Shown here piece by piece: positions 3,615 through 49,998 of a DNA stretch of 64,000 nt. Made by a program: the position numbers and the translations under genes. The notes below the pieces were generated by a model. That model was given only the letters and a program-made list of their open reading frames with translations. It searched no databases and was not told the origin of the DNA. The stretch is from an uncultured Campylobacter sp. (GTDB lineage Bacteria > Campylobacterota > Campylobacteria > Campylobacterales > Campylobacteraceae): NCBI GenBank assembly GCA_934728065.1, contig CAKVDW010000006.1, forward strand, positions 27,376-91,375, read 5' to 3'. Numbering within the stretch: the first letter of the stretch is position 1; each line of letters starts with the position of its first letter.

Positions 3615-5280
3615 AAGAAAATATCATCAATCTTGCCTTACATTCAGCACAACAATAAAGCGTCTTAAGCTTTCTTTCATTGCCTGCAAATTTGTCTTTC
3701 ATCAAATTTGCCACCCTTTCAACCGCCTTTTTGGTTGCAAATTCTTTGCCACACTCCACACAGGCAAACAGCTCATCGTGGGCAAGGGTGTGAAAGTGAA
3801 AATAACTCGCTTTTAATTCAATCCCACTTCGCTCAAGTTCTATGGTGTCTTTTTCTGCACAACTTGCAACACAGTATCCACAGGTCGTGCAAAGGCTGGC
3901 ATTGAATTTTAAAGAATTATCCTTGCTATCAGCCACGAGCGCACCGACATTACAAGCACCCACGCAAGCTAAACACAGCGTGCAGTTTGTTTCATTTACC
4001 CTCACTTGTCCATATCTTAACCATTCGCCGCTTTCTACCACACCCAAATCATCATTTTCCACGATATGTAAAAGCCTTTTAGCAAAATGTTCTCTTTTAA
4101 GCATAGGATGCTGGGGCAAATCAAAGCGCAAATCATCGATAAATTCACACTCTTTCAAGGCTTTTTCTAAACTTTCTTTATCAAAGGCTACAAGAATAGC
4201 CTTTTTGTTAAATTTTCTCTCAAAAATAGCATTTAAAAGGGCTATGGCGTCTTCATTTCCCTTTGAAAGCCTTGTCGCACAGAGAGTTATATTTGCCCCA
4301 CTTGTTTGCAATAGTGCTAAAAGCGTGGTTTCGTTAAGTTGAGCGCTGTTTAAAACTAAGGGCAAAACATTTTTGTCAAGGCTTATTTCAAGGTTTTCAA
4401 GTGAGAATTTTTCATCGACAAGCAGGATTTTTTTGCCCTTGTAAAAGTCCAGCAAAGCCCAAAAACTCGCACTCGGCAAGGGCGTAAATTCTAAACTTCC
4501 ACTAGGACAAACGCTCACACAGTCCCCACAGCCCACACAATCAACCTGCGAAAAGACCAGCTGTCTTTTTTCATCATCTTTAAGTATAGCCACGCTAGGA
4601 CAAAGCTCAGCACACTTGCCGCAACACTCTTCGCGCCTTTTATCATACTGACAAATGCTGCTGTCGTAGTTTATATAATTTTTATAGCGATAAATGGGGC
4701 TTTTAACTTGTAAAAATTCAAGCAAAGCTCGCTCATCGCTGAATTTTCGCAAGTCATAACACCCACTTTGCTTGTCAAAACTTGTTTTAAACTCATCATA
4801 AAAGAAAAAATCACACTCTATTTCAAGCTCTGCGCCCTTTTCTTGCGTGATAACGCCGAGTTCTCCAACAGCTCCATATACGCCTAAAACTTCGCTCACC
4901 TGCAAAGCCTTAAAGCCATTTTGCCCCAAAAATTCGCACAATGCGCCCTTATCTTGTGCGCTTGCGATGATGACATTTGCGCCCACTTGCTTGTCATACT
5001 CCAAGTCAAGCCCCAAATCATAAAGGCTTGCGCGCACTTCGTAAAGCAAAAGCGTGTTTTTTGCTTTATCCAAGCACTCATCTTGTGAATTTTTAAGATA
5101 AAAGTTGATTTCAGGGGCGTAAATTTGAGCGTTTGGGCTTTTTTCGTTGCTGATAAGTGCGAATTTTTCGCCTTGCTTTGAATTTTCGCTCCATTTTTCA
5201 AGCTCATCACGCTCGCAAAGACTGATACTATCGGGTAACGGCACTAAAAAGTCATTTTTGATAAAGACAAAATCTTTCAT
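3613..5280 (-). CDS. Multi-cluster ferredoxin-type iron-sulphur protein (Cj1377c-like)
   Basis: Four cysteine clusters of [4Fe-4S] ferredoxin type are visible: CCGKCAELCP, CVGCGDCVSVCP, CTLCLACVGACN and CTTCGYCVASCA. A C-terminal CVECGKEF...CCAECKA set suggests a further metal site. The middle 120 residues (KKILLVDEKFSLENLEISL onward) have no cysteine clusters. I start it at ATG 5280 (MKDFVFIKND), which has GGAGAAAATTT in front, rather than at an upstream in-frame ATG. In C. jejuni the homologue also sits beside selA/selB. That suggests an electron-carrier or maturation role for a selenocysteine enzyme such as formate dehydrogenase, which is inference only. There is no signal peptide, so it is cytoplasmic. 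Confidence 0.85.
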   Translation of the reverse strand: MKDFVFIKNDFLVPLPDSISLCERDELEKWSENSKQGEKFALISNEKSPNAQIYAPEINFYLKNSQDECLDKAKNTLLLYEVRASLYDLGLDLEYDKQVGANVIIASAQDKGALCEFLGQNGFKALQVSEVLGVYGAVGELGVITQEKGAELEIECDFFFYDEFKTSFDKQSGCYDLRKFSDERALLEFLQVKSPIYRYKNYINYDSSICQYDKRREECCGKCAELCPSVAILKDDEKRQLVFSQVDCVGCGDCVSVCPSGSLEFTPLPSASFWALLDFYKGKKILLVDEKFSLENLEISLDKNVLPLVLNSAQLNETTLLALLQTSGANITLCATRLSKGNEDAIALLNAIFERKFNKKAILVAFDKESLEKALKECEFIDDLRFDLPQHPMLKREHFAKRLLHIVENDDLGVVESGEWLRYGQVRVNETNCTLCLACVGACNVGALVADSKDNSLKFNASLCTTCGYCVASCAEKDTIELERSGIELKASYFHFHTLAHDELFACVECGKEFATKKAVERVANLMKDKFAGNERKLKTLYCCAECKARLMIFS

Positions 5281-8715: not shown

Positions 8716-8902
8716 ATTTAGGGCAAATTCAAAGCTCTGCGCTAAAAGGCTGAATGTTTGCGTGTTTTTAGCGTGGCGTAATCATAAATTTAAATATTAT
8801 CCTTGCTCGTGGATTGCCACGCCGTTTTTTTGTAAAAACGGGTCGCAATGACGAAGTCCTTGTTATAATGGCTTATTATTTGTTGTTATACTGATAATTT
8901 TC

Positions 8903-8929
8903 GTCATACTGAGCGTGTGCCAAGTATCC
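8903..8929. repeat. Partial copy of the palindromic element
   Basis: GTCATACTGAG (8903-8913) followed by AAGTATCCA. Only the left arm is recognisable, with no matching right arm. Confidence 0.5.
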
Positions 8930-8944
8930 AAAAACTTTTCACAT

Positions 8945-9068
8945 TGTCATACTGAGCTTTCGCAAGAAAGCGAAGTATCCACAAAATCAAAGTGTTTTAA
9001 ATCCTTATGGATTTTTTTGCTACGGCTACGCCTTGCAACCCGTTGGGTCGCTACGCTCAAAATGACAA
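8945..9068. repeat. Palindromic intergenic element, copy A
   Basis: The left arm TTGTCATACTGAG (8945) with CGAAGTATCCAC (8971-8982) faces a right arm with ATGGAT (9007) and GCTCAAAATGACAA (9054-9067). The ends TTGTCA/TGACAA are perfectly inverted and the interior is a degenerate stem. Length is about 124 bp, with extra small hairpins inside (TTTCGCAAGAAAGCG). Confidence 0.65.
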
Positions 9069-9077
9069 GGTTTTGTT

Positions 9078-9177
9078 TGTCATACTGAGGCGTTAGCCGA
9101 AGTATCCATAAATTTAAGGCGTGTCTTAAATTCTGTGGATTTTTCGCTTTCTAATGAAAGCTCAAAATGACAAAATC
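9078..9177. repeat. Palindromic intergenic element, copy B
   Basis: TTGTCATACTGAG (9078-9090) with CGAAGTATCCATAAATTTAA faces TTAAATTCTGTGGAT (9126-9140) and AGCTCAAAATGACAA (about 9163-9177). It lies head-to-tail after copy A, with about 100 bp between the TTGTCA and TGACAA ends. Confidence 0.65.
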
Positions 9178-9391
9178 CGCCGTCATTGCACGCTTTGTAA
9201 TCATCATTGTGAGCAAAAAAAGAGTCTTGCAAAAGCCTTGTGTGGCAATCTTAAAAAATGCTGAATTTTCAAAGTCTTATTTTAAAGCCTTTGTAGTTAA
9301 ATTTGCAAATTTTTTTACAATTTTTTCACACATTTTTCACAAATTTTTTAAATTTTTTGTCAAAGTTTGGGAAAATTCAGCTTAAAAAGAC

Positions 9392-9397
9392 TATAAT
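9392..9397 (+). promoter_or_regulatory. Possible -10 for the Sel1-repeat gene
   Basis: TATAAT in CTATAATCC lies about 160 bp upstream of the ATG, which would give a long leader. No closer TATAAT was seen. Confidence 0.35.
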
Positions 9398-9554
9398 CCA
9401 TAAATCAATTTTAAAATTTAAATTTTTCGCCCTTTGTGAGAATTTAACAAATTTTAAAATGTGATGAATAAATTATAAAATTCAAAAAAGTCTTTAAAGC
9501 ATTGAGACGATAGACTTTTGGTTTTGCATAAGGCTTTGCAATAAAGGGAACAAA

Positions 9555-49150: not shown

Positions 49151-49233
49151 TAAATTTGTTATTTTTATTTGCTTGTCATTTCGTGGTGAGATAAACTTAT
49201 GCAAATACCGATGAATTCAGCTAATTTGTCATT

Positions 49234-49356
49234 AAATTCAAAGTGCGCTTTTATTTGTCATTACAAAACTTCGTAAATTTAAAGTATATTTGTGTCCGTC
49301 ATTACACTCTTTATAAATTTAAAGTGTGGTTTTGTTTATCATTACCAAGCAAAACA
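49234..49356. repeat. Three degenerate tandem units of about 40 bp
   Basis: Units begin AAATTCAAAGTG (49234), AAATTTAAAGTA (49275) and AAATTTAAAGTG (49315). Each continues with a T/G-rich stretch and (G/A)TCATTAC. The period is 40-41 bp. Confidence 0.55.
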
Positions 49357-49483
49357 CAAAAACGCTTTCTAATCGCCTTGCACGCAAGACATAAACCTTG
49401 TGCGACAAACCATAAAAAGCCAAAATTTAAGTTTTACACCCAAATTTTCAACCACTAAAACCACAAAACGCAAACCCTTAAAC

Positions 49484-49709
49484 CTTGTCATACTGCTTTA
49501 ATCTTGTCATACTAAATGCTTTTTTGTCATACTGACTTGGTTTTTGTCATATTGAGCCGTAGGCGAAATATCCATAGAATTTAAAACACACCCTAATTTT
49601 ATGGATACTTCGGGCTTTGCCCTCAGTATGACAAAAAAGCATTTAATATGACAAGAAAAATAGGTGCTTTGGCTAAAGCCTCGGTATGACAATTTATAAG
49701 TATGACAAG
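49484..49709. repeat. Palindromic element cluster (TGTCATACTGA family), copy C and fragments
   Basis: Half-arms TGTCATACT occur at about 49486, 49506 and 49525. A full hairpin runs 49544-49634: TTGTCATATTGAG and CGAAATATCCAT against ATGGATACTTCG and CTCAGTATGACAA. Inverted half-arms (TATGACAA) follow near 49648, 49685 and 49701. The ends and the GAAGTATCC block match the copies at 8945-9177. Confidence 0.65.
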
Positions 49710-49998
49710 ATTTATGGATTGCCACAAATTTACACACTTTTGCCTTGCAAATTCTCTCAATGACAGAGCAAAATCCTTGTCATTACTCCCTTTGCAAAAG
49801 CAAATAATGCTAATTAACTTGCAAGACCCTAATCTTTCGTTTAAAATCAAACAATAATATTTTATTGAAAATTAAGCTGATTTTGTCTAATATTTTATAA
49901 TTATTTTTGGCTTTAAAGACTTAAATTCTAGCTTTTGTATTAGCCAAAGATTAATAAAAGGATTTAATCTTAAATAAATTTCTTAAAAAGGGGTTAAG

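Follow-up and report, generated by a model that had tools for sequence, protein, structure and literature searches.

A strand-specific, REP-like hairpin repeat with a tandem G·A motif in an uncultured Campylobacter, other Campylobacterota and viral contigs

The window analysed here is a stretch of 64,000 nucleotides from an uncultured Campylobacter sp. (assembly GCA_934728065.1, contig CAKVDW010000006.1, positions 27,376 to 91,375). The two longest stretches in which no ORF reaches 80 aa are located at 8716-9554, behind selA-selB, and at 49151-49998, and each of these islands holds short hairpin units arrayed on either strand. When up to two mismatches were allowed, TGTCATACTGAG was found 15 times in the window, compared with a mean of 2.4 and a maximum of 7 in 100 dinucleotide shuffles. 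The repeat arms which an earlier note on this DNA had described at 8945-9068, 9078-9177 and 49544-49634 are thus above chance. Thirteen of the 15 matches lie inside the islands (six at 8884-9172, seven at 49486-49707), and the remaining two (at 4641 and 5388) look like chance matches. The earlier note's copies A and B, as well as its hairpin C, were found at the positions given there and correspond to the unit pairs U3/U4, U5/U6 and U8/U9, respectively. The element at 8902-8930, which had been taken for a half copy, is a complete unit (CGTCATACTGAG..CCAAGTATCCA). In addition, the islands contain units that had not been recognised before (8810-8853, 9181-9251, 49664-49692 and 49715-49765) as well as partial ends at 49485-49543. 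The features are as follows, each with the basis of its assignment.

8810..8853, minus strand: U1, ATTGC-type unit with CGTC tag, ATTGC/GCAAT foot, long apical stem and CCA tail (sequence; hairpin predicted at 8812-8854)
8902..8930, plus strand: U2, whole unit CGTC-ATAC-TGAG..CCAA-GTAT-CCA with the internal mismatch GA/CA (sequence, predicted fold)
8944..8981, plus strand: U3, left half of copy A, with ATAC/GTAT foot, TGAG/CGAA and CTTTC/GAAAG apical stem (sequence, predicted fold)
9008..9068, minus strand: U4, facing U3, with enlarged apex; ATTT/AAAT foot seen by eye, absent from the predicted minimum-energy fold (sequence, fold)
9077..9108, plus strand: U5, left half of copy B, with ATAC/GTAT foot and GGC/GCC apical stem (sequence, predicted fold)
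9136..9173, minus strand: U6, facing U5, with ATTT/AAAT foot and CTTTC/GAAAG apical stem (sequence, predicted fold)
9181..9251, plus strand: U7, degenerate ATTGC-type unit with CGTC tag and ATTGC..GCAAT (sequence, predicted fold)
49485..49543, plus strand: three partial left ends TTGTCATACT, spaced by 19-20 nt, ahead of U8 (sequence, repeat comparison)
49544..49574, plus strand: U8, left half of hairpin C, with ATAT/ATAT foot (sequence, predicted fold)
49602..49634, minus strand: U9, facing U8, with ATAC/GTAT foot and GGGC/GCCC apical stem (sequence, predicted fold)
49664..49692, minus strand: U10, decayed unit (TTGTCATACCGAG..), foot not predicted (sequence)
49715..49765, minus strand: U11, an ATTG-type unit that has decayed but keeps a CCA tail; the predicted fold of 49716-49767 lacks the foot (sequence)

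U4 matches an element of genome G151 over 67 bp (93%). ATTGC-type units (CGTC-ATTGC..GCAAT-CCA and decayed forms thereof) share the islands with TGAG-type units at 8810-8853, 9181-9251 and 49715-49765. A search of the window against Rfam at the gathering score gave no match.

The unit has the general form TTGTC-AT-N-Y-T-GA-G-(apical stem-loop)-C-GA-A-R-N'-AT-CCA/CTC and a length of about 30-60 nt. The functional unit is better read as the single hairpin, with copies A, B and C each made up of two separate units face to face. The earlier description of an element of 90-125 bp with inverted ends does not hold in this respect; feet match within a unit and not across the pair. The members of the window pairs carry different foot dinucleotides (ACTGAG and TTTGAG in two pairs, ATTGAG and ACTGAG in the third), and therefore each foot fits its own unit rather than the partner. 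With a strict pattern, which caught two of the three window pairs, neither pair was of one subtype and all four feet were matched inside their unit. At viral loci 31 of 32 feet matched inside the unit, and 10 of 16 pairs were of one subtype. All five pairs in genome G077 were of one subtype, so that unit and pair cannot be told apart there; the strict pairs of G151 (8 of 14 feet matching inside, 3 of 7 pairs of one subtype) would not decide the matter alone. Three clear pairs are present among the 11 window units, and in genome G257 a '+-' pair alone made up 6 of 22 islands and a single copy 9 of 22.

The 11 window units were folded singly with DNA parameters. The foot was formed in eight predicted folds (U1, U2, U3, U5, U6, U8, U9 and, in part, U7), but not in those of U4, U10 and U11. 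A 2x2 internal loop was predicted exactly at GA/GA in U3, U5, U6, U8 and U9, and at GA/CA in U2. The parameters used are believed not to credit tandem sheared G·A pairs. Predicted folding energies were nearly equal on both strands.

CGTC tags precede U1, U2 and U7, and TGTC tags the other eight window units. When the tag was left free in viral contigs (92 stretches, 12 of which are loci with the numbers L180-L188 and L341-L343), GTC preceded the foot at 68 of 90 distinct places (TGTC at 61, CGTC at 2), the other 22 being without GTC. Stem positions 1-2, left free at 78 places, were AT/AT in 66 cases, compensatory in three (AC/GT twice, GT/AC once) and broken or wobble in nine. A CCA tail is present in nine of the 11 window units (all except U7 and U10), while viral tails begin with C at 74 of 90 places, CTC being the commonest (32).

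A two-arm pattern was used to survey 397 Campylobacterota genomes, sampled evenly from a larger group. It was found in 54 genomes, with at least 10 copies in 17 of them, and was absent from 343. Counts per genome include 372, the maximum, and 198, 145, 145 and 123, whereas the reversed pattern occurred at most once in any genome. The proposal that these repeats form a family had depended on matching ends at other loci; such ends do exist at the level of the phylum. TTGTCATNYTGAG was detected in 46 of 153 Campylobacteraceae genomes, most often in G151 (322 copies; reversed pattern 0), followed by G068 (30), G086 (16), G077 (9), G142 (7) and G002 (5), with four copies or fewer in the others. The distribution is patchy, and in the 1 kb behind selB a unit arm was absent from all seven relatives inspected. 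A 7-kb piece of the window and one 37-nt unit, used as queries for plasmid carriage, gave no match. Repeats of a similar kind are probably abundant in many further bacterial phyla; beyond Campylobacterota, the analysis covered viral contigs of mixed origin, in which the present units were seen.

Covariation of the foot was evident in several data sets. With a fixed viral 25-mer in which the four foot letters were left free, 78 copies were retrieved from 65 stretches, and 77 of them were perfectly complementary (TC/GA 39, CC/GG 25, GT/AC 9, GC/GC 3, AC/GT 1; the broken foot was TC/GG). In a wider count the apex was left free, duplicates were removed and the result was tested against 2000 shuffles. 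The foot was complementary in 149 of 154 cases at viral loci (shuffles: mean 50, maximum 73), in 28 of 37 cases in G151 (maximum 19) and in 12 of 14 in G086 (maximum 12, reached by one shuffle in 2000). Across the phylum, 130 of 150 feet among the matches listed were complementary, with a mean of 68 and a maximum of 86 after shuffling within genomes; at least two contiguous closing pairs of the apex were present in 123 of these 150 listed matches, as opposed to a mean of 11 and a maximum of 19 for shuffled apices. Genomes dominated by one subtype gave 16 of 17 (G068), 21 of 21 (G077), 4 of 4 (G024) and 40 of 41 (G257, shuffle maximum 38). Covariation was weak and not clearly above shuffles in G142 (4 of 11, a value matched by 83 of 2000 shuffles) and G002 (2 of 7, matched by 1247 of 2000). 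In the window alone all six feet were complementary, yet 75 of 2000 shuffles equalled this value. The strict pattern paired the left arm of U2 with the right arm of U3, since U2 reads CCAAG and not CGAAG (the right arm of U2 itself is likewise GT), and it left U4 without a right arm.

When the tandem mismatch itself was left free, GA/GA was found at 66 of 67 distinct places, the other being GC/CA. GA/GA is present on one strand only, and the opposite strand would carry TC/TC; the signal is therefore strand-specific. The stability of tandem G·A pairs follows a Py-GA-Pu rule, and GCGAAGC is known as an ultra-stable DNA mini-hairpin. A search of the literature on tandem G·A pairing in DNA, in which few subscription journals were covered, yielded nothing to the point.

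In the window no intragenic unit was seen, and the repeats indeed mark the two large gene-free islands, as the earlier note had stated; in G151, by contrast, such repeats are not limited to gene-free islands. Among 76 full units in the 854,722 bases of G151 examined, 12 are located within ORFs with a minimum length of 150 aa; one of these ORFs (162 aa, without Pfam match) may be spurious. Two of the genes concerned in G151 are essential ones: its GatA has 556 aa with an in-frame insert of 95 aa after residue 50, and its Fmt has 397 aa with an in-frame insert of 53-54 aa after about residue 289. Neither insert was present in any of the 15 other genomes searched (GatA 453-494 aa, Fmt 308-328 aa). 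In Fmt the insert contains two strict units face to face, in GatA one strict unit plus a decayed facing arm; both inserts exceed the unit pair in length. Solved structures of Fmt align on either side of the insert, not within it, while the best structures for GatA align from residue 141 onward only and say little about the insert. Judged from these sequence comparisons, insertions in the G151 lineage would be a far simpler explanation than losses in all others. A clean empty site with target duplication was not obtained at the DNA level, the relatives' proteins being 65-80% (GatA) and 46-61% (Fmt) identical. Five full units are contained in an ORF of 1190 aa in G151 (L050:13460-17032) with CDP-glycerol glycerophosphotransferase and glycosyltransferase domains, the linkers of which are rich in unit-encoded peptides. 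A McrC-like restriction ORF of G151 holds a unit pair and CarB, at the edge of the sequence examined, a single unit (L355:5617-7239 and L355:18104-20000). Peptides encoded by units, of types such as CHSE..SEES and DSSL....QND, turn up repeatedly in unrelated proteins of G151, which calls for caution on the part of annotators. A filler rich in AATTC/AAATTYA was noted beside units in gatA, fmt and the L050 ORF of G151; in the window it forms a 37-nt repeat with three copies at 49228-49345.

A strong constraint on the hairpin would also be expected if the units were transcribed and kept as 3' stabilisers, terminators or RNase sites. T-G foot pairs, the commonest non-Watson-Crick type in G151 (TT/GA, four cases), would fit such a role in RNA, as would the placement of the G151 islands outside ORFs, mostly between co-directional genes (13 unidirectional, two convergent and one divergent among 30 islands), yet the latter figures are near the expectation from base share (0.161, 0.050 and 0.028). 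Orientation shows no bias, however, single copies between co-directional genes being four sense and four antisense in G151 and one and two in G257, and facing pairs present both orientations. Given further that no T-run follows the window units, that 343 of 397 genomes lack a match and that units occur within protein genes, a function at the RNA level appears improbable.

The 25-nt unit was also found in IMG/VR viral contigs, between or within ORFs. In a phage gene encoding 557 aa, a single loop was compared in 24 rows of relatives, sorted by eye: it contained the TCTGAG/CCTGAG unit in four, an ATTGC-type unit in five, GTAGGGGC-type repeats in three, CTCTCCCTC-type repeats in three and other sequence in nine. 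Rows excluded from this comparison are L204 (residues identical to L203), L213 and L214 (interrupted frame) and L215-L217 (short). The loop (L124:1-1671, relatives L189-L212 and L152) thus carries different genomic repeat families depending on the relative, as if the gene had captured intergenic repeats. A simple pair of filled and empty sites was found neither in this loop nor in a family of 602-aa genes, where different repeats occupy one place. A search with the protein of L168 returned the protein itself and one relative, L219, on the contig of L178, which is already filled. PHROGs named one of eight phage proteins, with unknown function.

The nested repeated arms around hairpin C, the arrays in L050 and L060, and the difference in array length at one spot between L220 and L221, two phages that are 96% alike in the neighbouring protein, are all consistent with hairpins born during replication, for which template switching or snap-back synthesis among copies already present would suffice and no dedicated enzyme would be needed. 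Such a process by itself does not place units in gatA and fmt, and it leaves unexplained why an unpaired GTC tag is conserved (68 of 90 places). As a full account of the family it is rather unlikely.

The closest relatives among known repeats are to be found in the CGTC-tagged REP super-family described by Di Nocera, De Gregorio and Rocco in 2013 (families CGTC-1 to CGTC-4; PMC3733652). As set out in the text of that survey, these REPs have an unpaired CGTC tag (with TGTC and CCTC variants), complementary AT at stem positions 1-2, a stem of 8-9 bp, a loop of 4-5 nt and a short, unpaired CCA-like tail, with head-to-head dimers predominating. The units share the CGTC/TGTC tag, the foot starting with AT, the 3-nt tail, face-to-face dimers (often heterodimers), intragenic copies, the lack of a dedicated transposase and the patchy spread. 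They differ from the published stem and loop in having a 4-5 bp foot, a tandem G·A and a variable apical stem, and therefore were not filed in CGTC-1 to CGTC-4. According to its text, the survey kept repeats with two or more stem mismatches only where they occurred in dimers, a pruning that could have excluded units of the G·A type. Its main text contains neither 'Campylobacter' nor 'Arcobacter', Sulfurovum being the one epsilon genus noticed there. The units are best read as an undescribed variant related to the CGTC super-family, set apart on the basis of the text description, with an overlap in the figures possible. Literature searches by unit letters and for Campylobacter palindromic or REP elements, CGTC/RAYT, mobile palindromes and Rickettsia, covering few subscription journals, gave among the matches listed no description of the family besides PMC3733652; in the text retrieved of PMC6006769 and PMC5896051 'CGTC' occurs only within a citation of that survey. 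By description, the palindromes in the unrelated proteins GatA, Fmt, McrC-like and CarB of G151 resemble RPE-4, RPE-6 and other protein-coding palindromic elements of Rickettsia (PMC3733652), from which the window differs in being without an intragenic copy.

The movement of CGTC REPs was left open in the text of the 2013 survey because no transposase genes accompany them; mobilisation by RAYTs or other transposases was likewise left open there (PMC3733652). This possibility, as well as the overall build of a strand-specific hairpin with a short unpaired tag and copies in pairs, would agree with a non-autonomous element driven by a Y1 HUH transposase of the RAYT or IS200/IS605 kind. GTAG REPs, BIMEs and REPINs, short strand-specific hairpins in inverted pairs (described in part in PMC3733652), are of this type, whereas the present units are tagged with GTC and show no RAYT association. 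Y1_Tnp (PF01797) was detected in 10 of 153 Campylobacteraceae genomes, nine of the matches being above the cut-off. It occurred in none of the six genomes with at least five motif hits compared with 10 of the other 147, a difference that is not significant alone (p 1.0). In a panel comprising all genomes with at least 10 two-arm matches and 24 unit-free genomes picked by hand, Y1_Tnp was present in one of 17 unit-rich and 15 of 24 unit-free genomes (Fisher p 0.0003). None of 33 loci around Y1 matches, some of them representing pieces of one gene, showed a unit arm in the surrounding 1.5 kb or so, or as far as the contig end. A resident Y1/RAYT driver of the IS200/RAYT type was rejected on these grounds, and dependence of the units on Y1 enzymes in general is hardly probable. 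A TnpB-type domain, present in two of 17 unit-rich and four of 24 unit-free genomes, showed no association either. What is left, as judged from the Y1 and TnpB domains on which the absence of a transposase association rests, is a different type of mobiliser, or one since lost.

A Pfam scan of 12 window proteins near the islands bore out the earlier statement that no transposase is visible. MITEs are short elements with inverted ends and no transposase of their own. The units resemble them in being short, in having inverted arms when paired and in lacking a transposase; they differ in that the ends are separate hairpins, of different subtype in the window, and in that no target duplication was established. 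Of the two likenesses drawn in the earlier note, REP-type was thus right in kind, and MITE was not borne out, as neither target duplication nor transposase was established.

The account considered probable is that of a strand-specific REP-like hairpin repeat, closest to CGTC REPs, which scatters as selfish DNA via a trans-acting factor other than a resident Y1/RAYT. Each unit consists of a GTC tag that is unpaired, a foot of 4-5 bp opening with AT, two G·A pairs (5'-TGAG-3'/5'-CGAA-3'), an apical stem-loop that varies and a short tail with C as its first base; this putative factor would recognise it as a folded single strand, either on the lagging-strand template or as an excised strand. The orientation of single copies in G257 (n=9; six on the G-rich, three on the C-rich strand) comprises too few cases and gives no support for a single-stranded route. 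Units would multiply and scatter singly or as face-to-face pairs; intergenic copies would be retained as nearly harmless, and those in genes would survive where the frame is kept. More broadly, the tandem 5'-Py-GA-Pu hairpin, in its shortest form on GCGAAGC, might serve as a single-stranded DNA signal for a non-Y1 mobilising machinery common to distant bacteria and phages, by which Campylobacterota proteins would be rewritten through in-frame insertion; this wider proposal is tentative and, for the moment, doubtful. The family reaches several hundred copies in a genome, its structure is defined by covariation, and its inserts in gatA and fmt are absent from the relatives searched. This gives the search for the mobiliser a concrete form, and the near-invariant G·A motif could serve to fish for a binding protein.

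A hairpin of the form ATxCTGAGCGAAGCGAAGxAT without GTC tag was observed in the viral loci L315, L316, L320, L322, L323, L329, L331, L335, L337 and L341-L343. These tagless hairpins lie largely in a common context (ccgaac..agtgaagg or similar) and perhaps represent a second, tagless use.
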